From: a virus
IMG/VR virus record: IMGVR_UViG_3300044996_000206
Coordinates: 1-36,358 of that record
DNA: 36,358 nucleotides
Reading direction: 5' to 3' (one strand)
The first letter of the stretch is position 1. Each line of letters begins with the position of its first letter. The notes beneath the pieces were generated by a model. It was given only the letters and a program-made list of their open reading frames with translations. It made no database searches and was not told the origin of the DNA. The translations under genes and the position numbers were made by a program. Shown in pieces: positions 7,036 through 32,681 of the stretch.

Positions 7036-8154
7036 TCAACTCCTCTCAACCACGCCAATGCGCTTGCGTGCCTGTGCGTTCCTCAACGCATCCCGTTGCA
7101 AGCCTACTGGAATATTCCCTGCGGACAATACGGGGGTAATGACAACCGCATCCTGCGAAATCACGATGCGGGCCTCTGTCAGCCGCATGGAAAGCTCTAC
7201 CCCATCGATGCGGAAGGCAACCAAGTCTCCGATGGTGTAGTCCACGAACATGCACCGCCCCTTCGCTTCGATGGGGACGACTTTCAGACTGGATGAGCTA
7301 CCCCGATTGTCCAACTCGGATGCCGTCATTTCGAGCAGTTCAGCCGTGACGGACGTGCGCTCATAGTTGTAGAATTCCTCTGCCCTGCCCCACCGAAGCA
7401 CACTGTTGCTGTCCATCCCCTCAACGAAGGTGCGGGATGTTCCTGTGCCAAGCCCGCCCGTGATGAGGTAGTTCGCATCCGGTTCGCCCTCCTGATACTG
7501 GTAGGAAAGCAACGTCCCGGTATCGAAGTCGAACAGGATTGAGCTTGTCCTGTCCACCGGGGAGTAAACCTGAAATTGCAAATCCACCACACGGAAGCCA
7601 AGCGCAGGCGAAGCCGCCCCGGCGAGCATGGCGAGCAGGTCCATGAGGCCATCAAACCTCGCCCGCCCGGTAACTGCACTTCCACGCCCATAATCGGTCT
7701 CGATGGTCAGCCCTGTCACCCGCCGAGCCAGATTTGCGCCAGCCCCGGCATTGTAATAGACGTACTGCTTCAAAACCGTTTCAGCCACCCCGGTCCGCAC
7801 ATCATGCGTCGCAGATGAGTAGGGAGGGCCACTGACAACGGGCAACGCCACCCGCTTCTCCAAAAAGCCAAGGTCGCACTTGCCGTACCACGAAATCGAG
7901 TTCTTTACGGCATCCCGGCTTCGCTCATAGCCGCCGACTTTGCCGGAGAAAAAAGGTTGCCCATCCCGGTAGATGGATATGCCGCCACCGATGCCAAGCA
8001 GGGCCGCTTGGTCGAGGGATAGGTCGATGTCCATAGCCCATGAGCCAACGGCGTTGAAGCGGGGAATAATCTCAAGCCGGGTGAAGCCATCAATCTTCCC
8101 CGTAATCGCCCCGCTTGCGTCCCGGGAGAATACGTGCCAGATGCTAGTGGTCAT
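7036..8154 (-). CDS. Siphovirus ReqiPepy6 Gp37-like tail protein
   Basis: This 372-residue protein resembles the ReqiPepy6 Gp37-like family of tail-tip proteins (Tal-like baseplate hub). Signs are the N-terminal FTRLEIIPRFNAVGSW and a FFSGKVGGYERS strand, the middle GGLGTGTSRTF and the C-terminal IGDLVAFRIDGVE barrel. It sits between the Dit-like gene and the appendage genes, as expected for the hub. The ATG overlaps the stop of the Dit gene (ATGA) and lacks a strong SD, so it depends on coupled translation. Confidence 0.82.
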   Translation of the reverse strand: MTTSIWHVFSRDASGAITGKIDGFTRLEIIPRFNAVGSWAMDIDLSLDQAALLGIGGGISIYRDGQPFFSGKVGGYERSRDAVKNSISWYGKCDLGFLEKRVALPVVSGPPYSSATHDVRTGVAETVLKQYVYYNAGAGANLARRVTGLTIETDYGRGSAVTGRARFDGLMDLLAMLAGAASPALGFRVVDLQFQVYSPVDRTSSILFDFDTGTLLSYQYQEGEPDANYLITGGLGTGTSRTFVEGMDSNSVLRWGRAEEFYNYERTSVTAELLEMTASELDNRGSSSSLKVVPIEAKGRCMFVDYTIGDLVAFRIDGVELSMRLTEARIVISQDAVVITPVLSAGNIPVGLQRDALRNAQARKRIGVVERS

Positions 8155-8999
8155 CGGGCCAGATACCTTTCCGCATAAACGAAATCGACCTGCGTGTTCG
8201 CATCGGAGTTGCCCATCATGCAGGATATATCATTGTCGCCAGTGATGAGGGGCCAGAATTCACTCGACCGATTGAAGTAGGCGAAGGCATTGACACCGTT
8301 CTTCTCCACTGTCTTATACAACGGGCGGGTGTCGATTACAAGGGTGTCGCCCAAAGAAAGAGACAGGGTCGGCAATAAGGCAAGTTCCTTGCCAGTAGTA
8401 AAGTTCTTCAACACGATGTCCGATGCAGGCCCGGATACTGTGATAATGGGCCAGACGGTATAGCCGGGATTGTTCACGGTTTTACGTTGGAGCACAGCAC
8501 TCGCTGTCAGGCGAAGCGGGAATATCGGGAAGAACGTGCCAGTGCTTGCCGCCAACTGGAAGGTCTGCGTCGTGTCTGTTATCTCATACCAGAACGGGTC
8601 ACTGACGGAGAAGGACAGGACGAATTGCGCCCCCGGCACATCCTCCAGCCCATCCACCCCATCGTCCTCCGCACCGTCCTGCAAGTATACGTCACGCAGT
8701 TCCCGGGCCACCCCATCATTGTCGGTGAAGCGCAGGTAGCCGCCGGGGTAGGTGGCGAGGTAGGCGAGCAGGTCATTGACCAGCAACCGCCTAGCCATCA
8801 TGGACTTGGCGACAATCGCAAGAGGGAGTTCCAGCGTGCGTGTGCCGATGGAGTAGGCCATGACCTTTGCGACTTCCCCGGCGAATTCGCTGTTCAAGCG
8901 AAAGTCGGGGGCCATGTCGCCAGCCATTCCAGACAGAACGATTGCACCGGGCCGGGTGATGTGGAATTCATCCGTGCCGTACACATAATCAATTTGCAC
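8151..8999 (-). CDS. Distal tail (Dit-like) protein
   Basis: The 282-residue product fits the siphovirus tail component / Dit family: an N-terminal strand region, the TRTLELPLAIVAKSM...LLAYLATYPGGYLRFTD belt motif and an FVLSFSVSDPFWYE stretch typical of the galectin-like second half. Dit forms the hexameric hub at the tail end that holds the baseplate. I chose the GTG at 8999 because AAGGGAG lies 7 bases before it; it overlaps the tape measure stop by 11 bases. Longer in-frame starts to 9161 would overlap the tape measure gene deeply and read as low-complexity sequence. Confidence 0.85.
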   Translation of the reverse strand: MQIDYVYGTDEFHITRPGAIVLSGMAGDMAPDFRLNSEFAGEVAKVMAYSIGTRTLELPLAIVAKSMMARRLLVNDLLAYLATYPGGYLRFTDNDGVARELRDVYLQDGAEDDGVDGLEDVPGAQFVLSFSVSDPFWYEITDTTQTFQLAASTGTFFPIFPLRLTASAVLQRKTVNNPGYTVWPIITVSGPASDIVLKNFTTGKELALLPTLSLSLGDTLVIDTRPLYKTVEKNGVNAFAYFNRSSEFWPLITGDNDISCMMGNSDANTQVDFVYAERYLAR

Positions 9000-11346
9000 C
9001 AAGTATCTCCCTTCGACGGAACAGGGCGTACAGAGCATCAGCGTCAAGGTTGTTGCCACCCGAGACGTTGAAATTGTAAGCGGTGCTTTGCGTGTTGTTA
9101 TAGTAGGAACCAGCCCCGCCAGTAATGCCGGTGAGGGCCGCTTCCTGCATGTTCTCCGCAACGTTCCCGATAAGGTTTACCGGGACATTCATGCCGCCCA
9201 TCAGACCCTCGGCCAGACCGGCAATGACCTGCTCGCCAATCCCGGTGAACACCTTGGACGGAGACGAAATCTGGAAGATGCTTTCGATAACCCGAACAAT
9301 GTCACCGACCGCATTGTTCCACCAGTATTTCAATTCTTCCCAAACATCCTTCATGCCGTCCCATAGGCCCTGCAGAACGTCCCTTCCTGCCTGCTCGAGA
9401 GTGGGGCCAAGGTTCTCCCAAAACTTGAGAATGTCACGCCAGCCTTCTTCCCACCAAGTCTTGATGTCCTTCATGCCCTTATCCCACCACGTCTTGATTT
9501 GCTCCCAAATAATGCTCGCCGTAGTGGACATGGCTTCGAACGTGCCAGCCCAAATCAAGCCGAGTTCTTCAAGGGACGACCCCATCCACTGTAGCACCCA
9601 ATCAATGAACCACGCAAACACTTCGACCACAAGAAGAAGCGCATCCTTGGCGATTGTCCCGAGCATATTCCATGCCCCGGCGAAGTCGCCGGTGACCACC
9701 AGCATGAAGTACTCCATCAGGTTCAGGATGGTGTCGAAGACAAACCCCAAAACCCATCCCAGCAACGAAAGAAAACGGAACAGTTGGGGAAGGCCGGTAT
9801 CGACCAGCCATTGAAGGACGGTCCTGACAAATTCCACAATCAGCGGGCCATTGTCCCGCAGGAAATTCGCAAAGATTTCAAAAAAGCTGGCAACGCCACC
9901 AGAGACATCGACCCCGAAGAACTCCTGAATAAGCTCGGTGATTTGCGGTGAAAATTCACGCCAAAGCACATCGAACTGCACCAGTATCGGGTCGAGCGCA
10001 GTCTTGATGACGTTCATGGCATCACTGATTCTTCCAAGCGAAGACAGGAAACCAGAGGCGTTGTCTGCATTCCCGAACAGGCCGCCAGTGTTCCCGGTAA
10101 CGCCGAGCATGTTTCGTATCATCCCCTGCACCGCTTCGGGGTTCGATAGGTCAAGATTTCCGGTCAATGCAAAGCCGCCGAGTTGCACAGTGGACAGGGC
10201 AGACCAGATGCCATCTTGAATTGCATTTGCAACCGAGCGAGAGTTGAACAGGTTGAACAGGGCCGTTGCAAACTTGGTAGAACCGGGACCTCCATCCATA
10301 AAAGCAGTGATGGCATCGAATAGCGGGGTCAGAAAGGCATCTACGTTTTCGCCAAGTTTAGTCCCGATTTCCGTGAGCGTGCCGCTGTTCAGCGCACCCA
10401 TGAAGCGGTCAAGGATTTGCGAACCAAGTCCAGCAATGACTTCAAAGGCAGGCCCAAGCAGTTCGGGCATGGACAGAGCAAACACATCCTGCATCGTGGA
10501 TTTCAACCCGTAGAGCGTGCGGGACATGCGCTCTGCCGCCCCACCGAAGTTTTCGTCGGCGTACTTCTTGAAATCGCTGGCGAAGTCTTCCCACTTCAGT
10601 CGCCCGGAGGCAATCGCATTATTGAAGTCGTCAATGTCCTTGATGACCACGTTATGCTGTTTGCCCATGTATTTTAGGACGCTGACAAGGTCTAGGCCAG
10701 CCATAGCCAACTGCCGCACGTCCAGCCGTGTAACCTTGCCAACCAACCGGACTTGGGCCAAGTTGTAGGACATGCGGTCGAGCATGGAAGCATCCGCACC
10801 CACGCCCGCCGCCATGTTCAGGAGTGCATCGGTGAAGTCTCGGGCCTCATCAGCCTTGAAGCCGAATGCCATAGACTGACGGAAGGTCTGAAAGACGTTT
10901 TCGAATTGATAGGGAGACAGAATGGCAATGTTGCGAAGCTCACGGTACAGTTCTTCCGAAGCACCCGCCGCCATCAACAGTCCCTGCGTGACATTATCTG
11001 CCCGCCCTTCCTGTACAAACTGGCGGGCCAGAAGGCTTTGCAGGCCAATCATGGCATATTCGATTTTCGCAGTTTCAGCGACGGCATTGTAGGCAAACTG
11101 CCGAAACATTGCGGTTCCATTGCTGAATGCATTGGCGAGCGTATTGCCGACAAAACTGGTGAATATTCCCCCCAATAGGCCGAGCGACTTGGAGACAATA
11201 CCAGACATCCCGGTCATGGCACTACCCATGCCAGCCGCACCAGTGGTCGTCCGGGTGTGCGCCTGTTCAATGCCACGCAGGTAGAGGTTCAAGCCCGCCG
11301 TAAACGACGCTGTCTTGAAAACACCCTCAAGTCCGATTTGCTCCAT
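8989..11346 (-). CDS. Tape measure protein
   Basis: This 785-residue protein sets tail length and lies inside the tail tube. The N-terminal 300 residues match the tape measure domain (AGLNLYLRGIEQAHTRT, the ILSPYQFENVFQTFRQSMAFG segment, LDVRQLAMAGLDL). A hydrophobic block (about 510-560) and amphipathic Trp-rich repeats follow (WWDKGMKDIKTWWEEGW). With the usual 0.15 nm per residue it predicts a tail of about 115-120 nm. The start overlaps the stop of the upstream small gene as TAATG. Order (chaperones, tape measure, Dit) is canonical. Confidence 0.93.
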   Translation of the reverse strand: MEQIGLEGVFKTASFTAGLNLYLRGIEQAHTRTTTGAAGMGSAMTGMSGIVSKSLGLLGGIFTSFVGNTLANAFSNGTAMFRQFAYNAVAETAKIEYAMIGLQSLLARQFVQEGRADNVTQGLLMAAGASEELYRELRNIAILSPYQFENVFQTFRQSMAFGFKADEARDFTDALLNMAAGVGADASMLDRMSYNLAQVRLVGKVTRLDVRQLAMAGLDLVSVLKYMGKQHNVVIKDIDDFNNAIASGRLKWEDFASDFKKYADENFGGAAERMSRTLYGLKSTMQDVFALSMPELLGPAFEVIAGLGSQILDRFMGALNSGTLTEIGTKLGENVDAFLTPLFDAITAFMDGGPGSTKFATALFNLFNSRSVANAIQDGIWSALSTVQLGGFALTGNLDLSNPEAVQGMIRNMLGVTGNTGGLFGNADNASGFLSSLGRISDAMNVIKTALDPILVQFDVLWREFSPQITELIQEFFGVDVSGGVASFFEIFANFLRDNGPLIVEFVRTVLQWLVDTGLPQLFRFLSLLGWVLGFVFDTILNLMEYFMLVVTGDFAGAWNMLGTIAKDALLLVVEVFAWFIDWVLQWMGSSLEELGLIWAGTFEAMSTTASIIWEQIKTWWDKGMKDIKTWWEEGWRDILKFWENLGPTLEQAGRDVLQGLWDGMKDVWEELKYWWNNAVGDIVRVIESIFQISSPSKVFTGIGEQVIAGLAEGLMGGMNVPVNLIGNVAENMQEAALTGITGGAGSYYNNTQSTAYNFNVSGGNNLDADALYALFRRREILGAN

Positions 11347-11621
11347 TACTTACGCCTCGACCCTTTCCTCAACCGGTTCTTTTCCATTTCCAGACGCTGT
11401 AGATGCCCTTCCAATTCCTCGATGCCGGTTGCGGTTCGCCAGTAGGCGAGCATTACGGCGGCATCTTCTCTGGCATCACACAGACCCATTTGCGAAGGCA
11501 GGACGTTCCAGTAATGAGCACAGGCAACTTCACTGTAGTACGGGGTCGCCTGATAATGATTGCTCTTACCCCGCCTTGCCTCCTGCAACGCCTGCTTGAG
11601 CGAACGCTTCTTCCATCGCAC
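11346..11621 (-). CDS. Tail assembly chaperone, second frame (GT-like)
   Basis: The short basic protein (91 aa from GTG 11621) lies exactly where siphophages place the second tail assembly chaperone frame, between the first chaperone gene and the tape measure. In such phages it is usually made as a fusion by programmed frameshift. It is in the +1 frame relative to the first gene and overlaps its last 56 bases. The GTG has only a distant GAGG, and no start codon in this frame lies near the better AGGAGG, so frameshifting is more likely than independent initiation. If so the coding part starts near 11570. Confidence 0.7.
   Translation of the reverse strand: MRWKKRSLKQALQEARRGKSNHYQATPYYSEVACAHYWNVLPSQMGLCDAREDAAVMLAYWRTATGIEELEGHLQRLEMEKNRLRKGSRRK
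11566..11584 (-). promoter_or_regulatory. Candidate +1 frameshift site in tail chaperone genes
   Basis: The first chaperone ends ...GGC AAG GCG GGG TAA G. A Gly tRNA on GGG can slip one base to GGT, also a glycine codon, and continue AAG AGC in the frame of the second gene. AGGAGG (11584-11579) lies 7 bases before the GGG but serves no start codon, resembling the stimulatory SD-plus-stop layout of prfB. No -1 slippery heptamer would connect these two frames. Confidence 0.5.
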
Positions 11622-12180
11622 GTTGAAACGTGGCCTCGACTTGCTTGACCTGCTCCTCCTTCACCATTCCGGAGAGACGGAACACGGCCACCATCAAGTC
11701 AGCCAAATCCTTCGGCGATTGAATGACCCGAAGCTCCACAAACTTGTATCGACGCTGGACCTTATCCTCGGGGATGGGGATTTCCAACGCCGCCATTTCC
11801 TCAACCCAATCCTGCGAAGGTTCCACCTGAACAGACAGGAACACGGCCTTCATCAGGCGGGCATTGTACTCGGCCTCCATTGCGGAATTCTTGGCCTTGT
11901 ATTCAGCCCAAACCTGCTGGTTCTCTTTCGTCGCCACCTCATCGCCCTCGACCACAAGCGTGGTTTCGTCGTGCGGGTGGACTTCGGTTTCTCCCGTTGC
12001 AGTTTCAACCGTGTAGGTGGGAATAATGGGGAAGTTTCCCGCTTTCTTGAATTTCTCAATCACGGTCTGGCGAATTGCCTCTGGCATGGTCGGGGACAGT
12101 CCACGGATGCGGTAGGTTTCACCCGCTTGGTTCGTGAACGCACCGAAGTTCTGCTTGCCGTCAGAGCCTTGCTGTGTCAT
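11566..12180 (-). CDS. Tail assembly chaperone, first frame (G-like)
   Basis: The 204-residue mostly alpha-helical acidic protein sits between the tail tube gene and the tape measure, the place of lambda gpG-type chaperones that hold the tape measure during tail assembly. The position and the overlapping second frame are the main evidence; sequence motifs are weak. ATG 12180 follows GGAG by 9 bases; an in-frame ATG at 12195 has no RBS. A strong hairpin (12203-12232) stands between it and the tail tube gene and may lower its expression relative to the tube protein. Confidence 0.78.
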   Translation of the reverse strand: MTQQGSDGKQNFGAFTNQAGETYRIRGLSPTMPEAIRQTVIEKFKKAGNFPIIPTYTVETATGETEVHPHDETTLVVEGDEVATKENQQVWAEYKAKNSAMEAEYNARLMKAVFLSVQVEPSQDWVEEMAALEIPIPEDKVQRRYKFVELRVIQSPKDLADLMVAVFRLSGMVKEEQVKQVEATFQRAMEEAFAQAGVAGGKAG

Positions 12181-12202
12181 GGCACTTTTCTCCATTTCAG
12201 GC

Positions 12203-12242: not shown

Positions 12243-13691
12243 TTATTCGGCAACCAACTCAATGAAGCCGAGGCCGGAGTACGCTTCACCGACCACGACG
12301 GCATTGTTGCTGTCGCCAGCCCACAGGATGTTGCATCCTGTGTTGGTGTCGGTCGTGAGCAGTTTCCAAGTGTAGCCGCCGTCGATGGTGCGCAGAACCT
12401 TGCCCACCGGGCCAGCGGTATTCACAAGGGCGAAGCCCACATAGTCGTTCACGAAGAACAGGGACTTGACGTTGGAGTACGTGCCGAAGCCGGTGCGCTC
12501 CGTCCACGTCGAGCCGCCGTTGGTGGAGTAGTACATCTTGCCAGTGGCAGTCCCTACCCACACATGGTCGTCGTCGAAGGCGTAGACCGAGGAGACGGTC
12601 GGGGTGGCGGTGATGGCGGTAACGGGCGACCACGTCTGCCCGCCGTCGATGGTGCGGACAACCACGCCGGATGCGGCAACGGCGAAGCCATTGACACCGT
12701 CCGACGCAAAGTGAACGGCCTGATAGATGCCGGTCGTCGAAACGCCCGCATCCACAGCCGTCCACGTCTCGCCGCCATCGGTGGACTTGTAGATGTAGCC
12801 AGCATTCCCGACAAGCCAGATGTTGTGCTGGTCGAGGACGAACAGGGAACCACCCTTGGCGGGGCCGTGTCCAGCAGTTGCGCCGCCGAGGTTTACGGTG
12901 GTCCACGTCGCACCCCAATCGTCCGAGTAGGCCGTATGCCCCTGACCGCCGGTCGGGTAGTATTCAGCCACAATCAGACGGATGACATGGTTGCCCATGT
13001 CAAGGATGCCGCAGGCCATTGCGTGCTTGTCGATGGCGAGCGGGTCGGCGGCGCAGGTGGACCACGTCCTTCCACCATCCTGCGTGTACAGCACATTCGC
13101 CTTCACGCCGGTGTCGGCGTCGGCCACGGCAACGCCGTACTTATACGGCAGGATGCCATCGGCCTCGGGGAGCATGGCAACGTCATTGATTGCCATCGTC
13201 TCGGTGATGGTGATGCGCTGGCCTTCGACCACGACGACCTCAATCAGCGGGGGCCATGCGGAGATGGAGAAGCCCCGGGTCGTCTCGTTGTCTTCCTCCC
13301 GGTTCACCAGACCGGCATAGGTCTTCTCCGTGTTGCGTGCTTTCGGCAGGATGATGGCACGCACCCAATTCGAGAAGGCATCGGCACGCCCGCCGTCACG
13401 CTGGAGCAGGGAGAGGCCGTACTCGCCCCGGATGCGCTCCAGATAGGTGCGGGTCTTGAACGTCAGGCTGGTCAAGGACGTGGTGATGGGGTCGGGCGGT
13501 GAAACCTTCTCGCCCATCACGGTGAACTTGCCATCCGCTCCGAAGCACCGGATGAGTTCCATGTCACCCTGTGGTTCGGTTACATCATCGGCGTCCGTAC
13601 AGCCGATGTAGTTCGGTGCGGCATTCGGGCCATCGGGGAACACCCACACCGCTCCGAGTTTGCTGGTCAAAGCCTTGATGTCATCACTCAT
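12243..13691 (-). CDS. Major tail (tube) protein fused to an Asp-box beta-propeller
   Basis: This 482-residue protein has two parts. Residues 1-about 180 are tail-tube-like and lie at the tube position, before the chaperone and tape measure genes. Residues about 183-480 hold six Asp-box motifs of the S/T-x-D-x-G-x-T-W type at 203-210, 256-263, 303-310, 347-354, 389-396 and 435-442, spaced 42-53 residues. This is the pattern of BNR/sialidase or Ycf48-like propellers. Such a domain would stand on the tail surface, perhaps binding glycans; sialidase catalytic residues were not identified, so binding is likelier than hydrolysis. AAGGAGGT precedes the ATG. It overlaps the upstream gene by 8 bases. 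Confidence 0.85.
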   Translation of the reverse strand: MSDDIKALTSKLGAVWVFPDGPNAAPNYIGCTDADDVTEPQGDMELIRCFGADGKFTVMGEKVSPPDPITTSLTSLTFKTRTYLERIRGEYGLSLLQRDGGRADAFSNWVRAIILPKARNTEKTYAGLVNREEDNETTRGFSISAWPPLIEVVVVEGQRITITETMAINDVAMLPEADGILPYKYGVAVADADTGVKANVLYTQDGGRTWSTCAADPLAIDKHAMACGILDMGNHVIRLIVAEYYPTGGQGHTAYSDDWGATWTTVNLGGATAGHGPAKGGSLFVLDQHNIWLVGNAGYIYKSTDGGETWTAVDAGVSTTGIYQAVHFASDGVNGFAVAASGVVVRTIDGGQTWSPVTAITATPTVSSVYAFDDDHVWVGTATGKMYYSTNGGSTWTERTGFGTYSNVKSLFFVNDYVGFALVNTAGPVGKVLRTIDGGYTWKLLTTDTNTGCNILWAGDSNNAVVVGEAYSGLGFIELVAE

Positions 13692-14079
13692 TACCTACCT
13701 CCTTGCGGTATTTTCGGGCCGGAGCCTTTTGCTCACGCACCGGCTTGTAAGCGGAAGCGGCAACAAGCAGGGTGGAGAAATCCATCCGATACGCCGCCTG
13801 TAAAGCCGCCACGACCAACGCAGGTTTCGATTGCATGTCGTCCATCGTCCAGATGCCATTATTGTGCAGGCATTCCTCCAGACGCTCGGCGGTCACCTGC
13901 GGCTCGAAGATTTCTGCGAACGGCAGGCCGTAGGGCGCACCCGCCTCCAAATCCTCGACCAAAGCGGTTCCGTCCTCCTTGAGTGCCGAGGCTGGAATGA
14001 TTGCCCGCTGGACCTTCGCATCCTTGACGAATTCCACGACGACTGCGTTGTCTTTTTCGTGAACCTTCTTTACGTCCAT
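13684..14079 (-). CDS. Hypothetical head-tail joining region protein
   Basis: No family is recognised for this 131-residue soluble protein. Residues 1-40 look like a small beta domain, then helices follow, and the tail is basic (ARKYRKE). It lies between the HK97 gp10-like gene and the tail tube gene, where tail terminator or connector genes are usual. AAGGAG lies 6 bases before the ATG, and its end contains the SD of the tail tube gene. Confidence 0.75.
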   Translation of the reverse strand: MDVKKVHEKDNAVVVEFVKDAKVQRAIIPASALKEDGTALVEDLEAGAPYGLPFAEIFEPQVTAERLEECLHNNGIWTMDDMQSKPALVVAALQAAYRMDFSTLLVAASAYKPVREQKAPARKYRKEVGNE

Positions 14080-14091
14080 ACTCTCTCCTTC

Positions 14092-14634
14092 CTACCGGAC
14101 AGCATGCCCGGATAGTCTCACCGCTTCTTTGTTCGCCCGTTTCATTTCGGTGGCAAACTTTTTCTTGTACTTCTTTTGAAGTGTCTGCGTCCACTTCCGT
14201 TTCTTGATACCGGGCCGGGGGTTGTTCATCAGCAGAACCGGCCTCCCGTTCTTCATCAGGACAGGGCCTTTTGCACCTGCCCATGAGTTCAATTCGCCAA
14301 CCCGGGTCTTCGCCCTAAACCCTTTCATCATCAGAGCATATCGCACCCGAGTGCCTTCGTCAAGCCAACGCCACTTCCAGTATCCCTTATCGCCAGTTTT
14401 CTTGCTGTGGGCCTTTAGGGTGAATTTTCTCGGAAATTGCCCTAGGAACGGGATGTTCTCTTGGTCGAGTTCGATTTCAGTATCGAAAATGGGCGTATCA
14501 CCCTTCCACGTTTTCGTGGTCTTCTGCAGGTCGGCCTTCATCAACTTTCCAATCTTCGCCATTGCATTGACGTAGGGCGTGTGGAAGTTGCGTAGCTTCT
14601 TCGGCACGATGACCTTGAAACTGACATCACCCAT
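14092..14634 (-). CDS. HK97 gp10-like head-tail / minor tail protein
   Basis: The basic 180-residue protein has the layout of gp10-like head-tail proteins: an early helix (KIGKLMKADLQKTTKTW), a central beta region around WRWLDEGTRVRYALM (the conserved x-x-E-x-GT turn) and a Lys-rich C-terminus. These proteins act in head-tail completion. The ATG at 14634 overlaps the previous stop (TAATG) with GGGAG 8 bases before it; the longer frame to 14691 is rejected for this reason. Confidence 0.72.
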   Translation of the reverse strand: MGDVSFKVIVPKKLRNFHTPYVNAMAKIGKLMKADLQKTTKTWKGDTPIFDTEIELDQENIPFLGQFPRKFTLKAHSKKTGDKGYWKWRWLDEGTRVRYALMMKGFRAKTRVGELNSWAGAKGPVLMKNGRPVLLMNNPRPGIKKRKWTQTLQKKYKKKFATEMKRANKEAVRLSGHAVR

Positions 14635-15665
14635 TACAGCACTCCCGCCGAAATCGCATTCATCGAAGCGACGTAGCACCATGCCTGCCACGCCCCATCG
14701 CTCATACCAAATGGACAGTTCTCCCGTTCAGCTGTCAGGATTTGCGGGGTGTGCCGGTCACGCTCCCACATGCCCCGCAGGTAGTCGCACCCGCAAGGTT
14801 CGGACGGCATTCGGGAATGAGCAAGGCGAATGATTGCGTCCTCTGCGTGCGGGGTAACAGAAGTCCACCCGGCTCGATAATTCACCCTCGCCCAACGGAT
14901 GTTGCAAATGCATTCCGTAAGCGAGACGCATGCGCTCAAATCCACGATGCCAAGCGGGCCATTGCGAAGCAGGCCGTTCACCAGAGTGGTCGCCTCGGTC
15001 AGTTCCTCGCAACTGCCGCACTCATACCCTACCAGTGTGACCGGGGTGGTCGTGTTCGTGTGGATGCGCTTCACGTCGATGGTGCTTTCGAAGTTGCTGG
15101 TATCCGTGTAATCATGCCCATCTTCCGGGTTGTCGAACAGGGCGGTCTTGACGGTGCGCACCCTCGGTATCTCGATGGACAGGACACCGCCCGCAATGGT
15201 CAGGGAAGATGGCGAGATTTCATAGTCCGTCCCGGGATGGTAGATGCGGACCTCATCCGTGTCGGTGAACGTGACGGCGCAGGATGCAGTGGCGGGGTCG
15301 GACACATGGCTCAATGCCAGCCCAAGCGAGACATCGTCCACGACCTCCACGCCGAGTTCGATGACGTTGCGGTTCCGCATTACGAGAACCTTCCCGTAAT
15401 CATGCTGTTCGTCGGTGAAGTAGGTCGGGACCATCGGGAAGCCCACCTTCGCTTCGACTTCCGATTGCGCCGCCTGCAAAGCCCGGATGACGGCCTGCCT
15501 CTGCCAGTGCGTCCAGATGGTCCGACAGGCAAACTCCTCCTGCCCGCTCTGACGAACACCAAAGAACGCCGCCTCGGAGTAGTTCACGATTTGAGCATAC
15601 CGGGCCGGGGGGATGGCAAGCGGGATTTGCGACAGGGAAAGAGTGGTCGGGACAATTGGGTTCAT
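14634..15665 (-). CDS. Head-tail connector region protein (343 aa, Cys-rich)
   Basis: The N-terminal helices (about 45-75) and placement between capsid and tube genes suggest a head-tail adaptor. The C-terminal half is unusually rich in cysteine (CGSCEE, CVSLTECICN, PCGCDY, ENCPF), which could bind metal or form disulfides in the virion. TAGGTGA precedes the ATG. It is longer than usual connectors (about 100-200 aa), so extra domains are likely. The family is not certain. Confidence 0.7.
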   Translation of the reverse strand: MNPIVPTTLSLSQIPLAIPPARYAQIVNYSEAAFFGVRQSGQEEFACRTIWTHWQRQAVIRALQAAQSEVEAKVGFPMVPTYFTDEQHDYGKVLVMRNRNVIELGVEVVDDVSLGLALSHVSDPATASCAVTFTDTDEVRIYHPGTDYEISPSSLTIAGGVLSIEIPRVRTVKTALFDNPEDGHDYTDTSNFESTIDVKRIHTNTTTPVTLVGYECGSCEELTEATTLVNGLLRNGPLGIVDLSACVSLTECICNIRWARVNYRAGWTSVTPHAEDAIIRLAHSRMPSEPCGCDYLRGMWERDRHTPQILTAERENCPFGMSDGAWQAWCYVASMNAISAGVL

Positions 15666-15673
15666 GTGGTCAC

Positions 15674-16360
15674 CTACTTTGATGCCCGGTTCACCGAGCC
15701 AAGGGTTTCAGCCTGATAGTGGATGTCGAATTCGAGCAAGCGGGTCTGCCCGTTGTAGGCATCCGTGTTCCCGTTTCGACGGATTGACCAGACAAGCATG
15801 TCGGATACCAGATACCCGGTCATGTCAATGTCAGGGAAGGTCGAGAGATTGTGCTTCTCCGCTGACGTGTTGTCACCCACGACAAGGGTGTGGTCCTGCC
15901 AAGCAGACCAACTCGAGAACGTGCCAGCCTTCGATGCGATGCGGTAGCGAAACTCCCAATCCACAGCAAGGTTACTGCCATCAGCCGTCACCTTCGTCCA
16001 GTGGATGTGCGGGGAAATCACAGTCCCTTCCTTCCACGCATGAGGCAGTTGGGCCACGCCCGCAATCACGTTCTCTTGATTGCCAGCGAACAGAAGCGTA
16101 CCGGGGTAGTCTGCCCCGTTGTCAAGGGTCGCCGGTGCAGGCGAGCCGACAGGATTGATACCCTGTGCAGGGAACCGCAGGTCCTCCCATAGGGCAGGGT
16201 CTTCCGTGTGGGAACCAACCGTGTCGCCGGTGTACGCTTCTTCTTCCAGCAAAGTGCGCAGGGCGTCCACCAGCGCATCCATATTCGTGATGCGAACAGG
16301 TTGCGAAGGGCCACCATCTTCATTCGTCATTGCGACCACACGAACAGGGTCATCAGGCAT
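15674..16360 (-). CDS. Virion structural protein with phage beta domain
   Basis: The protein (228 aa) has a long beta-rich domain with LWEDLRFPAQG (57-67), the HAWKEGTVISPHIHW core and WEFRYRIASKAGTFSSW, a domain found in various phage structural proteins that I know but cannot name precisely. The TAATG overlap with the DUF1360-like gene and its position inside the head-tail block fit a decoration or fibre protein. RBS: GGTGA, 3 bases before the ATG, with AAGGTGG further upstream. Confidence 0.68.
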   Translation of the reverse strand: MPDDPVRVVAMTNEDGGPSQPVRITNMDALVDALRTLLEEEAYTGDTVGSHTEDPALWEDLRFPAQGINPVGSPAPATLDNGADYPGTLLFAGNQENVIAGVAQLPHAWKEGTVISPHIHWTKVTADGSNLAVDWEFRYRIASKAGTFSSWSAWQDHTLVVGDNTSAEKHNLSTFPDIDMTGYLVSDMLVWSIRRNGNTDAYNGQTRLLEFDIHYQAETLGSVNRASK

Positions 16361-16692
16361 TATTCACCATCCACCTTTCCTGTCAGGAACGATTGCAAGC
16401 CCGCAATCGCCAGATAGGTGAGTATTATGTCGGTTATCGGTACAGGACGCACCACAGCCGTTCCTGTGAGTAAACAGAGCCATATTCCAAGGCAGTGCGG
16501 GCAGGAAAACAGTTCTGCCATCGTCCAGCGGAAACCGCCGAGACGTTTGCCAGAAGCCTTCTGCCCAAGCCAAGTCCGCAGGCGTTCAAACATCATGAAC
16601 GGGCCGCTCTCTTTCGTGACAAGCAGGGCGAGCCGGTAGGCGGCGAGTGCCGCAAGGATGAAACGGATGCCGAACGCAACATCAAAGGTCAT
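16360..16692 (-). CDS. DUF1360-like membrane protein
   Basis: The 110-residue protein follows the DUF1360 pattern: an N-terminal TM helix with AYRLALLVTKESGPF, a FERLRTWLG segment, then ELFSCPHCLGIW (61-71) with a CxxC pair and further hydrophobic stretches (72-85, 88-105). Function of the family is unknown. It is odd within a structural operon; a role at the host envelope is possible. The start has only a distant AGGT and depends on the near stop of the upstream gene. Confidence 0.75.
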   Translation of the reverse strand: MTFDVAFGIRFILAALAAYRLALLVTKESGPFMMFERLRTWLGQKASGKRLGGFRWTMAELFSCPHCLGIWLCLLTGTAVVRPVPITDIILTYLAIAGLQSFLTGKVDGE

Positions 16693-16696
16693 CGGG

Positions 16697-17665
16697 TCAA
16701 TCTACCTGAAATTCAGCACGTCCATGGTCGGTCATGGCAAGCAGTCCCCGCACGTCTGGATTTGCGACGTAGCCCCGGACTTGCTTGCCGCCAAAGCGAT
16801 AGCGCATCCCGCTTTCGCCGTAGTACGTCCTGACTGACAGGCTTCCACCCACGTACCGCAGAACGGTCATGCCTTCGGCGGCAGGCAGGGGGACATTGCT
16901 CTGAACCTGCGGGGTGGCAGGCACTGGACTGATGGTAGGGCGAGTGCGTTTTCCACAGCAACCCATCGGAAACTCTCCTCTTGCATAGATGTCGGCGTGG
17001 CGTTCCTCGATGATGCGGCGGGCATTGGTCGCCATTGCCGGATTTCGCTTTATCGTCTCAATCATGCCCTGCGGATTTCTCCGGTAACAGTAAAGTACAT
17101 CGGGGATGGAGTGACCGCAGATACCGACCTTGCCAGAGCGCAACCAGTAATCCCAATCTTCATACAGGGTCAGGGTTTCATCCCAACCGCCAAGCCGTTT
17201 CCAGTTCTCCGTCCGTTGCAGACATCCGTTGGGCCAGTAAACCGCCTGCATAAGTCGAGAGAAGTCGTACTCCCGGGCCAAGTAGGTCGAGCGTTGCTTG
17301 TCGTCAAACAGGATGGTCGAGCCGTACAGGAAACCATCGCCCGGGTATGCTCCAAGCGCAATGTCAATGGCGTTTGCCGCCAGATAATCGTCGGCGTCCA
17401 AGGGGAAGAAAAACTCCGTCTTGACGCTCTCCATCGAATAATTCCTCGCCGCCGCCAAGCCTTTCCTTTTCCCGGTCAGGTGCTTGACCAGCAGGCCCGG
17501 CCTGTCGGGGATTTCCTTTTCGACCAATCCCCATTCCACCACCGAATGGTCATTGACCAGAACGATGGGGTACTTTTCGGGGACGGACTTTATCGCCACC
17601 CGCAACCAATCCGCTTCCTGCTCGGACCGGACTTTTGCGGGAATAATCACAGTAACCTTGGTCAT
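16697..17665 (-). CDS. GT2 glycosyltransferase fused to a phage head-tail domain
   Basis: This 322-residue protein has a GT-A domain of family GT2 in residues 1-240: VTVIIPAK, the nucleotide-binding VLVNDHS, the metal-binding FPLDADDY (D90-D93) and a catalytic-type TLYEDWDYWLRSG. A Pro-rich linker follows. Residues about 262-322 form a small domain (LRYVGGSL...YYGESGMRYRFGGKQVRGYV) that phages often encode near capsid genes. The fusion suggests the enzyme is anchored to, or acts on, the virion. ATG 17665 overlaps the previous stop (ATGA) with GGAG 8 bases before it. Confidence 0.85.
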   Translation of the reverse strand: MTKVTVIIPAKVRSEQEADWLRVAIKSVPEKYPIVLVNDHSVVEWGLVEKEIPDRPGLLVKHLTGKRKGLAAARNYSMESVKTEFFFPLDADDYLAANAIDIALGAYPGDGFLYGSTILFDDKQRSTYLAREYDFSRLMQAVYWPNGCLQRTENWKRLGGWDETLTLYEDWDYWLRSGKVGICGHSIPDVLYCYRRNPQGMIETIKRNPAMATNARRIIEERHADIYARGEFPMGCCGKRTRPTISPVPATPQVQSNVPLPAAEGMTVLRYVGGSLSVRTYYGESGMRYRFGGKQVRGYVANPDVRGLLAMTDHGRAEFQVD

Positions 17666-19503
17666 GCCGGGAACTCCATATTGGCTACAATTCTGCTCCA
17701 CATTTCCTCATCCAGGACGTCGCCCATTTCCAGCATCACATGGGTCTTCGTGGATGGTTCTGCGTTCCAGCGCACAAAGGGCCAGCCCGCCTTTATGCGT
17801 GGGGTGGGTGTCCCGCTGATGCAGACTTCCCACCCGGTCGCCTTCAAGCCCTCGATGCTGTCCATTGTGCGGATGAACTCCCATTCATGATTGATACGAT
17901 ATTCCCCGATAAAACTGACCTTCGGGGCCGTGTAGATTTGAACGGGCCTGCCAAGTCCAGCATTGCGGTTCTTCCATTCCCTGCCGCCGAACCAATCGGG
18001 AAACTTGTGTCCAGATGAAAGCGAGCCGGGGTGCATCCGGTAGAACATCGTCACCTTATTGTCTGTAAGAAATTCCACCTTCCAGCCCTGTGATGCAATC
18101 CGCATCCACAGGCCAGCATCCTCGGCGGGGCTTTCGTACTTCCTAAACCCGCCAGCCCGTTCCCACGCAGACTTGCGGAAGATGCAGTTCGTAGGCACTC
18201 GGTTCCGGCCCAACGCCTGCTCCTTGAAATTGAAGCTGTCATTGAACCAGCGTTTCCCAATCGGGTTGAGATTTTCGTCGCACAACCCAAGCGGGCCGAA
18301 GACGATGCCAACCAGCGGGTCAGCGAATTTGGGCAACCCCCGCTGAACGTAATCCTTTGCCAGCACATCGTCGGCGTCCACGCACAGGATGATGTCGCCA
18401 GTGGCAGTTTCAATCCCGATGTTCCTTGCCCGGGCCACGCCCTGATTTACGTCAAGCCGGATGTACCTCACTCCATCGGGGATGCTCGGATTGTCCGTGC
18501 TTGCATCATCCACCACGATGATTTCATCAACGGGAACGGTCTGCTTGAAGATGGATTTCAACGTCTCCCCGATGTACCGGGCGTAGTTGTGCAGGGGGAC
18601 GACCACGCTGATTTTCGAGCGTGGGGCCGGGTTCTTCATCAGCCCCGCATAAAGGTCATAGGTCTGCTGGATGGGGGTGTCCCATGAGAACATCGTCCGG
18701 GCATAGTCCCTTGCCCAACTGCTGTACGCCCAATGGTGGAGCAGGACGTTTGTAATCGCCCGAGACAGGCCATCCATGTCACCCGGTTCCACCAGAACGC
18801 AACCCGTGCCATTCTGCAACCATTCCCGGTTGAAGCCCCAATCGAAGCCCACGACCGGGACACCCAAGGCCATCGCCTCCATCGTCGCCATGCTGTTGTT
18901 CTCGAGCGTGGTCGCCAGATAGATGCTGGTCTTTGCGAGAAATTTATAAAATTCTTTTCGGGGAAGTTTCCCGTAATTGTGGATGTTCTCCCCAATCGGT
19001 ATCAGGCTTGCGAGTTTCAGGTCGGTCCTGTTCCGGGCCAGCCAGAGAAGCGGGCGGGGGTCGCATACGGGATTTGCGGTCATCTTGGGCCAGAGTATCG
19101 GGCCGTGAACGTCGCCCCCGCTGGCGGGTAGTTGGTCGAAGTCCACGCCGTTGCGGATGACGGTAGGGCTGATGTGGAAGTCCCGGCGGTAGAAGTCGGC
19201 GGCAAGGTCGCTGACCGCAACCACCCTGCGGGCCGTCATTGCCAGTTTGAACAGTTCGGCGTTCACCTGTGCGGCTTGGGGGAACCAGCCTTTCAGGGAA
19301 GTGGGGTACACGCCATGAGAGTGGTAGACATCGAGCCTGCGCTCTGTCTGCCCGATGGCATGAACGATGACCAAATCGGCGGCGTCCTCGTTCTTCGTAA
19401 AGGTCACGCCCATCTTCTTCAAGTGCCTGTGATGGGCCTCGAGAACGGATGCCACCCCGCCGGACGGCATTTGCTTGTAGTTGGGGGAGATGTGGAGTTT
19501 CAA
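17662..19503 (-). CDS. Bifunctional glycosyltransferase (GT4 plus GT2)
   Basis: The 613-residue protein joins two glycosyltransferases. The first half is GT-B type GT4: an N-terminal PSGGVASVLEAHHRHL, the VYHSHGVYP region and the ENNSMATMEAMALGVPVVG EX7E motif. The second half (from about 300) is GT-A type GT2: ISVVVPLHNYARYI, EIIVVDDASTDN, CVDADD and ESPAEDAGLWMRI. It probably builds a sugar chain on a virion protein or on a lipid or protein of the host. The TTG at 19503 overlaps the preceding stop (TTGA); AGGTAGAG precedes it. The longer frame to 19536 is rejected. Confidence 0.88.
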   Translation of the reverse strand: MKLHISPNYKQMPSGGVASVLEAHHRHLKKMGVTFTKNEDAADLVIVHAIGQTERRLDVYHSHGVYPTSLKGWFPQAAQVNAELFKLAMTARRVVAVSDLAADFYRRDFHISPTVIRNGVDFDQLPASGGDVHGPILWPKMTANPVCDPRPLLWLARNRTDLKLASLIPIGENIHNYGKLPRKEFYKFLAKTSIYLATTLENNSMATMEAMALGVPVVGFDWGFNREWLQNGTGCVLVEPGDMDGLSRAITNVLLHHWAYSSWARDYARTMFSWDTPIQQTYDLYAGLMKNPAPRSKISVVVPLHNYARYIGETLKSIFKQTVPVDEIIVVDDASTDNPSIPDGVRYIRLDVNQGVARARNIGIETATGDIILCVDADDVLAKDYVQRGLPKFADPLVGIVFGPLGLCDENLNPIGKRWFNDSFNFKEQALGRNRVPTNCIFRKSAWERAGGFRKYESPAEDAGLWMRIASQGWKVEFLTDNKVTMFYRMHPGSLSSGHKFPDWFGGREWKNRNAGLGRPVQIYTAPKVSFIGEYRINHEWEFIRTMDSIEGLKATGWEVCISGTPTPRIKAGWPFVRWNAEPSTKTHVMLEMGDVLDEEMWSRIVANMEFPA

Positions 19504-20123
19504 CGCTCTACCTGCAGAACGGCTATGCCATTCCACCAGAGGGGATGATTGAGGCTGGCAGGTTCGATGTAAAGGCGCAGTTTCAATTCGGGGTACATGC
19601 CCATCAGTTCGAACAGGGCGTATCTGACGGTTTCAAATAGCATGTCGTCCAGAACAATGAAGCCGCCGTCCACGACAAACTGCATCCCCAACGTCACGCC
19701 CAAAACGGTCTGCTCGGTGGAGTGCTCGGCATCGTAATAGTACACGCCGACTTGGGTGTTGATGGGAAGCCCGGTCAGTAAAAAAGAGGCCATGTTCTCA
19801 TTGTGGAAGGTCACCCTGTCCTGCATCCCAAATGCAAGCAGGTTCTCTTGCAGGCGGCTTTCATCAGCCGCTTCCTGAAACTGCGAAAAGTCATCCACAC
19901 TGATTGCCTTGGCCTCATTCCCGGTAAGGGCGGCAATCAACGAACCGCCCTGATGCGTCCCTACTTCCAGATAGACCTCGCCCGGTTCCATGCACCCAAC
20001 CAGATGATTGAGCACATGCAAAAAGCGGGGGCGGGACATCGTATTGATTTTCGTGCAAATCAGTTGTAAAGGTTCAAGGTCTGCGACGGTAGCTATTGCG
20101 TTGGCAATATCGGGCTGTTTCAT
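19500..20123 (-). CDS. Class I SAM-dependent methyltransferase-like protein
   Basis: The 207-residue protein has the SAM-binding strand-loop VYLEVGTHQGGSLIAAL (51-67), then ISVDDF, and YYYDAEHSTEQT, close to the Methyltransf_24 / CmcI-like group that often modifies sugars or small molecules. It heads a glycosyltransferase pair with overlapping genes, so methylation of a virion glycan is the simple reading. AGAGG lies 4 bases before the ATG. It follows the hairpin after the capsid gene. Confidence 0.8.
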   Translation of the reverse strand: MKQPDIANAIATVADLEPLQLICTKINTMSRPRFLHVLNHLVGCMEPGEVYLEVGTHQGGSLIAALTGNEAKAISVDDFSQFQEAADESRLQENLLAFGMQDRVTFHNENMASFLLTGLPINTQVGVYYYDAEHSTEQTVLGVTLGMQFVVDGGFIVLDDMLFETVRYALFELMGMYPELKLRLYIEPASLNHPLWWNGIAVLQVER

Positions 20124-29910: not shown

Positions 29911-30523
29911 CTTTTTGGCTCAGTAGGCTCTCGATGTCGGGTGGCTGTTGTGGGATTTCCACAACCGTATTAATAACCATCTTGCCATCCGGGGTGTTTT
30001 CCACTTCGAGGCCGGGTGTATCGTTGTACTCAATGCGGGATTGCTCCATCAGCCGCTCGAGTGCGTTCACCAACTCCGGCAACTTGACCCCTTCGGTCTT
30101 GACCACGTTCAGGCTCGCCGCTATCTTTGAGTTCGCTACCCGAAGCAGAGCACGCCTGCGACGACGCCACTCCTCCTGTTCCTTGGAGAACGCAATTTCA
30201 TCCTCCCTTTGCATAATGGCATCAAAAGCCCCAACCCGTTCCTTCCAAGCAAACCCGCTGGACCACTCGATGAGCGTCTGCCATGATGTCGTTGGCGGGA
30301 CGGGCTGGCCCACCTTCCAATCCTTCTTCATGTCCTGATAGCGTGCCAGCAGGATGCGAAGCGAACGACCCGACCGCATGTAGGCGTAATCTCTTATCGC
30401 CTGATTTGCCCGGGTGCTTTCCCTGTAAATCCGCTCAAGCGGGGCATCCAGGTTGAACTGCGGGTCCTTGGGTGGATACTCCTGTGCCTTCAACGCAGGT
30501 AGTCGTGACTTTCCAGCGGTCAT
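29879..30523 (-). CDS. terS: Terminase small subunit-like protein
   Basis: This 214-residue protein directly precedes TerL. Residues about 55-110 look like a small DNA-binding region ending in WSSGFAWKERVGAFDAIMQRE, a pattern seen in several small terminases, then a long basic helix (EEWRRRRRALLRVANSKIAASL) and a C-terminal tail. Small terminases recognise the packaging site. The ATG overlaps the FolE stop (ATGA) with AGGA before it. Confidence 0.8.
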   Translation of the reverse strand: MTAGKSRLPALKAQEYPPKDPQFNLDAPLERIYRESTRANQAIRDYAYMRSGRSLRILLARYQDMKKDWKVGQPVPPTTSWQTLIEWSSGFAWKERVGAFDAIMQREDEIAFSKEQEEWRRRRRALLRVANSKIAASLNVVKTEGVKLPELVNALERLMEQSRIEYNDTPGLEVENTPDGKMVINTVVEIPQQPPDIESLLSQKDDQPEGNISS

Positions 30524-31074
30524 TTTCCTGCTCCGGACAAAGACAAGAACTCGGCCCGCAACGTAGCCAATTCAAGGAACTTTCCCGACATTGCGCTTGA
30601 CGTGAACACACAGGGCATCTTGATGCCACGCATCGTCATGCACAGGTGCTCACCACTTGCCACCACCGCCACACTGGTAGTCTTGGCAACCTGCCCGATT
30701 TCATCCGCAATTTCCTGAACGAGCCTTTCCTGTAACTGCAACTTGTGGGCGTGCTTTTGGGCTATCCTGCCGAACTTGGACAGCCCGATGATTTTATTCT
30801 CGGACAGGTAGCCTATCGTGACATCAGCAAAAAAGGGTAACAGATGATGCTCACACAATGACCACACTCGCAAGCCCCTGACCAACACCAGCTGGTCAGT
30901 GTTATAGGCCTCGAAGGTAGTGTCGTAGTTTCCGGGGGAGTAGTCAATAAACTCTTTCCAGAACCCGGCAAACCGGCGTGGCGTTTCCCGAAGCCCCTCC
31001 CTTGCCGGGTCCTCCCCGATTGCCTCAAGGATGAGTTTGCAAGCTTCTTTGAGTTTTCCTTCATCGACATTCAT
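30520..31074 (-). CDS. folE: GTP cyclohydrolase I
   Basis: This 184-residue enzyme turns GTP into dihydroneopterin triphosphate, the first step to preQ0. Visible zinc site: SLCEHHLLPF (C74, H76, H77) and GEHLCMTMRGI (H143, C145). The length is typical. In phage 7-deazaguanine clusters FolE raises precursor supply. GAGGT lies 3 bases before the ATG, which overlaps the QueE stop (ATGA). Confidence 0.96.
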   Translation of the reverse strand: MNVDEGKLKEACKLILEAIGEDPAREGLRETPRRFAGFWKEFIDYSPGNYDTTFEAYNTDQLVLVRGLRVWSLCEHHLLPFFADVTIGYLSENKIIGLSKFGRIAQKHAHKLQLQERLVQEIADEIGQVAKTTSVAVVASGEHLCMTMRGIKMPCVFTSSAMSGKFLELATLRAEFLSLSGAGK

Positions 31075-31724
31075 GCGACCTCTATATACTTGTGAACCTG
31101 TATTGAAATATTCCAGCCACGTTTCATTGCGTAATCAAGGCAGAGGCGAGTGGCATTCTTGCTGATGCTCACTGGCTGTAAACTAATTATACAGTCTTCT
31201 CTCACGGGCCAACCTACCAATAACTTTTCCAGCAAGGCCAAGTCAGACTCTTTTCCAATGACGGTCTTTATTTCATCTGCTGTTCCGATGACATCCAAAT
31301 CGATAGGCTTGGCGGCCCTGATTTTAGGCGACACGCACACCCAATCGAAGGCGGCCCGGAGCGAGCCTCGGGCTGTTCCGGATGTTTCTAGGGCAACGCT
31401 CAGACCATCACGATGCAAGACCTGTACGAGCTTTTCTAGGTCTTGCAGGGCTGGTTCTCCCCCCGTAACCATGACCCATCTGTATTGTGGATGATAGATG
31501 CGAATATGCTCGGCAATTTCTCGCTCATCCACCAGAGCGGCATTCCCGTTCTTCCCAAGGACATCCTCGAGATAGGGCTTGTTGGCTTCGGAAGGCCAAG
31601 TTTCCTTCGTGTCGCACCAGACGCACCCGACATCACACCCCTGCAGGCGCAGTATGACCATGGGAGTGCCAACCTTCGCACCCTCGCCCTGCACGCTTGG
31701 ATAGATGTCATTTACCATTATCAT
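31071..31724 (-). CDS. queE: 7-carboxy-7-deazaguanine synthase
   Basis: Radical SAM enzyme of 217 residues that contracts the pterin ring of 6-carboxytetrahydropterin to 7-carboxy-7-deazaguanine. The CxxxCxxC cluster motif is C30, C34, C37 in RLQGCDVGCVWCD, the SAM-binding GGEP motif is at about 88-91, and the N-terminus YPSVQGEGAKVGTP is typical. It overlaps the QueD gene by 17 bases; GAGGT lies 9 bases before ATG 31724, and the second ATG at 31718 is possible. Confidence 0.96.
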   Translation of the reverse strand: MIMVNDIYPSVQGEGAKVGTPMVILRLQGCDVGCVWCDTKETWPSEANKPYLEDVLGKNGNAALVDEREIAEHIRIYHPQYRWVMVTGGEPALQDLEKLVQVLHRDGLSVALETSGTARGSLRAAFDWVCVSPKIRAAKPIDLDVIGTADEIKTVIGKESDLALLEKLLVGWPVREDCIISLQPVSISKNATRLCLDYAMKRGWNISIQVHKYIEVA

Positions 31725-32082
31725 ATGGAGTGTACCTCGCAGAAGTTTCCGGGCTTTCCTTTACGGTAACGGCGGTGAGCAGGGGATACTCTGCCGAAAA
31801 CGCCTCAAACAGATGCCGAGCGATATTCTCGGCGGTGGGTGGCACACCTGCGGGCATCTTGTCGTTCAGGTGATAATGGTCAAGGTTCTGGTCTATCCAC
31901 GCCTTTATTTGTGAAAGTTCCCCGTAATCCTGAACGAACCCGGTGGCATCCAGCTCGGTCGAGGACAACTCGAACACGACCTCGTAGGTGTGACCGTGCA
32001 AACGGGCGCACTTATGCCCCGGCGGTAAATGGTCGAGCCGATGACTGGCCGAGAACTTGAAGCTCTTGCAAATCGTGTACAT
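31708..32082 (-). CDS. queD: 6-carboxytetrahydropterin synthase
   Basis: This 124-residue enzyme converts dihydroneopterin triphosphate to 6-carboxytetrahydropterin. Zinc ligands H14 (SASHRL), H29 and H31 (LHGHTY), catalytic C25 and the LDH (H69) and PTAENIAR motifs are all present, so it should be active. The ATG overlaps the upstream stop (TAATG) with AAAGGG 8 bases before. Confidence 0.96.
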   Translation of the reverse strand: MYTICKSFKFSASHRLDHLPPGHKCARLHGHTYEVVFELSSTELDATGFVQDYGELSQIKAWIDQNLDHYHLNDKMPAGVPPTAENIARHLFEAFSAEYPLLTAVTVKESPETSARYTPYDNGK

Positions 32083-32681
32083 TATCGTTTCCCTTTCCAG
32101 TATTCGAGAACGACATCTGTGGATGTTTTCTCGGCAACCTGCGCCAGACGAAAACCGCTCTTGAGTAGATGAGTACGCATTTCGTCGGCCCTGCTTCCAA
32201 GGTGTCTAAGATGGACCTCCATCAATAAAGCCCGCAAATCCGTTCCTACGAGTTTCTGCGATATAAAGAACTCATCCCCTTCCACATCCATCACGATGAC
32301 CGTTGGCCTGTGATGCGTCATGAGCTTGCCTATCGCATCGAAGCAGGCAAAACGCAGATTGCCCATGTCCCCATAAACCGGACCAACGACCCGGGATGTA
32401 TTCCACCATTCCGAGCGAACCCAATAGGGTCGTATCCCCCCTCGGGCCAGAACCCCTCGCCTTACCATCTGGACGTTTTTTGCCCCGCTTTGGCGCACGT
32501 TCTCCTTGAGCAGGACGAAGTTTCGGGCATCCATTTCGTAGGCCACGACCTTCTTTGCCTTTTTGGATAATGGGACCGTGACCGTGCCATGCCCTGCCCC
32601 GATTTCCAGCACAACATCATCCGGCTCAATATGCGGGATGATGAAATCGACCTCGGCCTGTTCCATTTCGTTAGTTTCCAT
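32082..32681 (-). CDS. FkbM-like SAM-dependent methyltransferase
   Basis: The 199-residue protein has motif I VVLEIGAGHGTVTVPL (23-38), an acidic residue after strand 2 (VAYEMDARN) and VIVMDVEGDEF, the FkbM-type VDVEG signature. It is placed between QueD and QueC in one overlapping operon, so it may methylate the 7-deazaguanine or its nucleotide; direct evidence is lacking and an O-methyltransferase for sugars is the family norm. CGGAG lies 5 bases before ATG 32681; the frame to 32732 would overlap QueC more. Confidence 0.82.
   Translation of the reverse strand: METNEMEQAEVDFIIPHIEPDDVVLEIGAGHGTVTVPLSKKAKKVVAYEMDARNFVLLKENVRQSGAKNVQMVRRGVLARGGIRPYWVRSEWWNTSRVVGPVYGDMGNLRFACFDAIGKLMTHHRPTVIVMDVEGDEFFISQKLVGTDLRALLMEVHLRHLGSRADEMRTHLLKSGFRLAQVAEKTSTDVVLEYWKGKR

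Follow-up and report, generated by a model that had tools for sequence, protein, structure and literature searches.

Siphophage tail tubes can carry additional domains on their major tail proteins. As described in the passages of PMC8718954 on tube decoration, lambda gpV and T5 pb6 bear a Big_2 domain, the YSD1 protein a Big_1 domain, and SPP1 gp17.1* an FN3 domain. The first-pass annotation of the DNA studied here had called Ig-like decorations of tail tubes well known, which agrees with the corresponding passages of PMC8718954 and PMC9022992, where a propeller is named in neither. A large C-terminal extension, TpeX, is also found on the major tail protein of the lactococcal 936 group, which then has ~500 residues in total; TpeX is presented in the relevant part of PMC6669499 as a BppA-like carbohydrate-binding module, with multivalent host binding as its proposed role. 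What such domains do along siphophage tails is posed as an open question in the same passages of PMC8718954. Asp-box propellers, in turn, are represented by the photosystem assembly factors Ycf48/HCF136 (PF14870), and a BNR/Asp-box domain is annotated in VP2/OVC8, a protein annotated as a phage capsid protein and, unlike the one reported here, not described as a tail tube in the part of PMC4802629 that deals with it. We found no description of a propeller on a tail tube in the open-licence PubMed Central literature.

Here, we analyzed one 36,358-base viral record from IMG/VR (IMGVR_UViG_3300044996_000206), referred to in its entirety as the window. Computation identified a gene in which two folds are joined in a stable in-frame fusion, which sits in the major-tail-protein slot and whose two parts are inherited together. 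The gene had been placed at 12243–13691; these coordinates are right, but the gene runs on the minus strand (13691..12243), as the matching frame of the plus strand is interrupted by a stop codon. Its product, the proposed major tail (tube) protein, has 482 amino acids and consists of a tail-tube domain followed by a C-terminal seven-bladed Asp-box propeller. Both the translation and the model place the tube domain and the extension in one uninterrupted frame, and the AlphaFold2 model of the whole protein, built with a 45-row alignment of relatives, reached a pLDDT of 93.2 and a pTM of 0.90. A short form of the protein made by frameshifting was rejected, because a scan of the gene for an in-frame −1 slippery heptamer found none. 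An internal GTG at codon 154, preceded by an SD-like stretch, might initiate translation of a separate propeller.

Like the Ig-decorated siphophage major tail proteins, the fusion combines a tail-tube fold with an extra C-terminal domain and occupies the same gene slot. Unlike them, it adds a propeller of ~310 residues instead of an Ig sandwich of ~90 residues, and no sequence similarity was detected between its tube part and theirs. Its extension has neither an Ig-like, an FN3, nor a BppA-like fold but that of a seven-bladed propeller. It resembles TpeX in the size of the extension; however, only some of the subunits receive TpeX, by means of a programmed frameshift, according to the relevant part of PMC6669499, whereas the fusion is read in one frame and its propeller is not a BppA-like module. 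With the Ycf48/HCF136 propellers it shares the profile match and the seven blades, yet here the propeller is fused to a phage tube domain rather than belonging to a photosystem assembly factor. The decorated tube as an idea is known from FN3, Big_1, Big_2, and BppA-like modules; a decoration of the propeller type, obligatory across a diverse lineage, appears to be new.

Because the Protein Data Bank (PDB) comparison of the full model was filled by propellers and silent on the tube part, this part was folded alone. The AlphaFold2 model of residues 1–172, based on a 44-row alignment, had a pLDDT of 89.6 and a pTM of 0.77, and its comparison with known structures returned a tail-tube fold. In the VIA search, the PVC tube 6j0b matched with a Z score of 13.0 (135 residues aligned at 2.2 Å), followed by AFP 6rao (12.9), the R4C tube 8gtb (11.5), SPP1 6yeg (11.1), and lambda gpV 7t2e (11.1). 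All of the best 50 VIA rows came from phages and contractile injection systems and represented tail tubes, caps, necks, tips, or baseplates. The first Foldseek match was the PVC-type entry 9qgl (E 2.8e-7), and tail-tube and tube-related chains dominated both match lists. Thus, the N-terminal tail-tube-like domain that had been proposed was borne out in its fold but not in its length, which is ~150 rather than ~180 residues (approximately residues 1–153; 13233..13691, minus strand). By sequence, no profile match linked the domain to a known tube family: the 44-row profile matched nothing in the PDB up to E 10, and PHROGs and Pfam gave no consistent match to the tube domains of 44 members.

The remainder of the protein was identified by both sequence and structure. 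Six Asp-boxes spaced by 42 to 53 residues had been reported, and a strict pattern, [ST]x[DN]xGx[TS][WF], recovered all six at residues 203, 256, 303, 347, 389, and 435 (spacings of 53, 47, 44, 42, and 46). When the C-terminal 302 residues were shuffled 20,000 times, boxes numbered 0.0095 on average and at most one per shuffle. The C-terminal part scored above the Pfam cut-offs for PSII_BNR (PF14870; 53.8 bits versus 27), Sortilin-Vps10 (51.1 versus 33), and BNR (41.6 versus 27), and the best PDB sequence matches of the fusion were Ycf48 proteins (E 1.6e-17). Structure comparison of the full model matched this part to seven-bladed PDB propellers with Z scores near 30, and these aligned with the fusion from residues ~150–156 through 482. 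The PF14870 score above its curated cut-off and the seven-bladed structural matches identify the domain as a Ycf48-type Asp-box propeller. The first-pass annotation had described a six-Asp-box propeller, and while the six boxes are there, the blades are seven, six of which carry an Asp-box. The blades occupy residues 168–482 (12246..13190, minus strand). Given six Asp-boxes in six blades and the strands at residues 150–160 (13212..13244, minus strand; DSSP E150–153 and E156–159), which precede the first complete blade, blade 7 is apparently closed in the model by a strand that exits the tube domain. Taken as anatomy, a tail tube protein that carries a propeller is, in our judgment, highly probable.

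Two further features of the propeller were observed. It opens with a Cys-rich loop, possibly a disulfide or metal site (alignment columns at residues 171–186), in which 39 of the 45 members have at least two Cys and which contains 12.3% Cys as compared to 1.1% elsewhere; the window's protein has no Cys there. Top and bottom faces of propeller loops follow a general convention, and we assigned them by this convention together with the DSSP boundaries. Among the 14 members of the window's clade, the loops of the presumed top face were less variable (BC, 1.58 bits; DA, 1.67 bits) than the AB loop (2.23 bits). The lower variation of the top face is compatible with a common ligand and, equally, with common contacts, e.g., between propellers.

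The minus strand of the window starts with terminase genes, head-region genes mostly devoid of family matches, a methyltransferase-domain protein, and two glycosyltransferases. These are followed by a connector-like gene (343 amino acids; 14634..15665), a neck/head-completion-like gene (199 amino acids; 14092..14691), and a small gene of 131 amino acids (13684..14079) directly upstream of the fusion, none of which had a convincing match, the first two to any Pfam or PHROGs family and the third to any family. Downstream of the fusion lie a tail-assembly-chaperone-like gene (209 amino acids; 11566..12195) and a second short chaperone-like ORF (91 amino acids; 11346..11621) that overlaps it. Next come the tape measure protein (785 amino acids; 8989..11346; Pfam TMP_3, 3.4e-13; PHROGs tape measure families, best 3.5e-24), the distal tail protein Dit (8151..9161; Pfam SPP1_Dit, 2.4e-11; PHROG 33 Dit, 2.2e-28), a minor tail protein of the Sipho_Gp37 type (7036..8154; Pfam, 1.8e-31; PHROG 538, 5.6e-53), and an endolysin, all on the same strand. 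The connector-, neck-, and chaperone-like labels were given by position.

The same arrangement was found in relatives. Homologues of the connector-like gene, seen as a ~400-amino-acid gene upstream of the fusion, occurred in 29 of 44 loci, those of the neck-like gene in 18 (16 of them 0.5–1.1 kb upstream of the fusion), those of the small gene in 21, each just upstream, and those of the chaperone-like gene in 33, directly downstream; an ORF similar to the second short one was present in relatives such as L013, L028, L035, and L043. A large ORF begins 0.7–1.7 kb downstream of the fusion in 38 of the 44 loci, the other six contigs ending before one is complete, and 29 of 39 such ORFs, the window's included, matched the tape-measure family phrog_167. 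Thus, both in the window and in relatives that extend far enough, the fusion lies between head-completion-like and chaperone-like genes and fills the slot ahead of the tape measure protein. Overall, the gene set reads as a tail operon of the siphophage kind, in which the fusion occupies the position of the major tail protein. No sheath gene was matched by PHROGs among the window ORFs scanned. Tail tubes often escape recognition by sequence. PHROGs recognized no second tube gene among the 30 ORFs of the window, in a possibly incomplete record; the fusion was one of these ORFs and its tube is likewise missed by the profiles, which makes this a weak search.

Several other genes of the window were noted. 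The glycosyltransferases, with Pfam GT2 and GT1 domains, are encoded between the head-region and tail genes (16697–19536, minus strand). Of 44 relative loci, 21 have a homologue of the larger gene (GT_17662) upstream of the fusion, where the tail genes face the head region; only this count was used, as the matches of GT_16697 were short (70–171 amino acids) and apparently spurious. Given these two genes, glycosylation of the virion is possible. A DUF1360 protein is encoded at 16360–16692 (minus strand), and 16 of 44 loci contain a homologue of it, likewise located upstream of the fusion. At 30520–34457 (minus strand), the translation, read by eye, resembles 7-deazaguanine (queuosine-type) biosynthesis proteins, and the product of 33600–34457 matches queuine tRNA-ribosyltransferase in PHROGs; such genes make DNA modification possible.

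Subsequently, we evaluated how widely the two domains occur together. A scan of IMG/VR with a four-row alignment retrieved 48 loci, 45 of which encode both domains in one ORF. The remaining three were L042, cut at the contig start and showing the propeller part only, and L053 and L054, which encode propeller proteins lacking a tube domain. The 45-row alignment omits L027, which repeats L026, as well as L050 and L051, which fell below the first phmmer threshold although both domains are present in them; the 44-row tube alignment excludes L003, and the propeller alignment L003, L014, and L015. In two scans performed with tube-domain alignments alone, which gave 24 and 17 loci, the propeller followed in frame in 41 of 41. 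Across 175 sources, comprising all loci and the window, we counted 94 ORFs with both domains and none with the tube domain alone; because these scans were pattern-based and incomplete, with profiles built from fusions, a bare tube may exist in a more distant outgroup. The 94 ORFs collapse to 68 distinct proteins, or 66 clusters when grouped at 95% identity and 34 when grouped at 50%. The tube-propeller fusion is an old, stable protein family of uncultured phages.

The two parts of the protein have travelled together, as seen from the correlation of their pairwise identities (Mantel r 0.86; 43 proteins, without L014 and L015; 903 pairs), which none of 2000 permutations reached. The propeller was better conserved than the tube in 95% of the pairs, with a mean identity of 32% versus 23%. 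Outside the IMG/VR loci, five members were compared with 50,697 phage records by tblastn, and the matches, if any, covered only part of the propeller; nothing credible came up in phage records for the tube domain by itself. In BFVD, A0A1P8DJ39 (497 amino acids) matched over the whole length (TM 0.73/0.71; E 2.5e-21; 17% identity) and probably shares the tube-propeller architecture, as judged from its model. By comparison, VP2/OVC8, at rank 2, was only a partial structural match (TM 0.55/0.57; rmsd 15.4). One related contig (L143:4902–7989) contains two complete tandem tube-propeller genes that are 58.7% identical, and its tail may be built from two paralogues. Propeller-profile matches lacking a tube domain were also seen in related contigs (L031:13279–16738, L036:798–1724, L053:101–3787, and L054:7809–10094). 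In the scan of genome contigs, the tube domain was found only in L055 and L056 among the 80 loci kept. As both are contigs of metagenome-assembled genomes (labeled Diapherotrites and Saccharibacteria), we drew no host from them. A host search gave no match in 400 sampled genomes from the phylum of L107 and 396 from that of L088, both run without a positive control; in the phylum of L056, one of 286 matched, which was the contig already known.

These results suggest the following model. A siphophage would use the fusion as its major tail protein, and the N-terminal domains would polymerize around the tape measure protein as a stack of hexameric rings. The chain would exit on the outer side of the ring and then fold as a full seven-bladed Asp-box propeller, which the closure of blade 7 by a strand leaving the tube domain would keep near the tube. 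Since both domains are read in a single frame, one propeller is expected per subunit. A tape measure protein accounts for 1.5 Å of tail length per residue, so that 785 residues, at a ring rise near 40 Å, would correspond to ~29 rings and ~175 propellers. Tail-tube ring rises of 38–43 Å are given in the relevant passages of PMC9022992, and extra C-terminal domains of siphophage tubes sit outside the tube in those described there and in the corresponding part of PMC8718954. We infer the hexameric assembly, the outward position, the copy number, and the binding of a ligand.

As to function, the first-pass annotation had suggested glycans of the cell surface or of mucus as possible ligands. In our model, the dense coat would bind in a multivalent, low-affinity manner and retain the virion on the surface of the host or within extracellular polysaccharide; this retention would raise the odds of the tail tip meeting its receptor. 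Multivalent weak binding has been proposed for FN3 and Ig-like tube domains, in the passages of PMC8718954 on their role, and the GFP-labeled TpeX extension bound host cells, as reported in the relevant part of PMC6669499. By analogy, multivalent weak binding would be the most likely role of the propeller. We consider the chances even that ligand binding is its main function, and the statement as a whole, a siphophage major tail protein with a propeller on each subunit forming a multivalent coat, somewhat probable. A host-range adhesin evolves fast; in contrast, the propeller is conserved above the tube and never missing, which argues against such an adhesin and also fits a structural role.

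This conservation makes a structural coat the main rival: with the same anatomy, contacts between propellers or with the next ring would stiffen or protect the tail, and no ligand would be involved. Such a role would fit the presence of the propeller at all 41 loci found by the tube domain, and the Cys-rich loop of most members could cross-link, although the protein of the window has zero Cys in it. In lambda, activity falls 100-fold when the Ig-like domain, which makes a contact within the ring, is lost (reported in the passages of PMC8718954 on gpV). However, a propeller of ~310 residues seems costly for this purpose, as a short C-terminal arm gives the contacts in 80alpha and SPP1, according to the relevant part of PMC9022992. 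We regard a purely structural coat as possible but doubtful. A variant that retains binding is that the obligatory propeller, more constrained than the tube, recognizes a single conserved ligand over the full length of the tail. The ligand might even be a glycan supplied by the phage, in which case propellers and sugars would zip the tail or virions together. A glycan of this origin is conceivable because of the glycosyltransferase homologues upstream of the fusion in relatives, but we consider the variant improbable.

Still less probable is that the propeller acts as an enzyme, e.g., a glycan hydrolase resembling sialidases, and removes polysaccharide along the length of the tail. Sialidases are among the Asp-box propellers, and weak PDB sequence matches to anhydrosialidase were found (E ~1e-4), but the Ycf48 group matches better. 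Sialidase propellers are six-bladed, and Arg-Ile/Leu-Pro is the motif of the catalytic arginine in sialidases of the GH33 type. The propeller has seven blades instead, and the R-[ILV]-P motif was present in 0 of 45 propellers; the absence of R-I/L-P and the blade number led us to reject the sialidase reading. Last, the fusion is very unlikely to be a single-ring component (a terminator or tube-initiator ring with a propeller crown) rather than the main tube. In favor of such a component, the same fold occurs in cap, neck, and tip proteins, which are also among the structural matches, and the searches that recognized no other tube gene were weak ones by sequence. Against it, the best structural matches are the PVC and AFP tube chains, the fusion lies directly before the chaperone-like and tape measure genes in the usual place of a major tail protein, and from the neck-like to the tape measure gene of the window the only other unassigned genes are the one at 13684 and the chaperone-like ORFs.

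For the preferred reading, a major tail protein with a propeller on each subunit, the size of the propeller, its obligatory presence in the relatives found, and its conservation above the tube make its function testable. The propeller can be produced as a separate domain, ~3 times as large as the known Ig-like domains of tubes, and its absence should lead to a clear phenotype. If it is stoichiometric, each tail would carry ~175 or more propellers and would constitute a natural scaffold for multivalent display.
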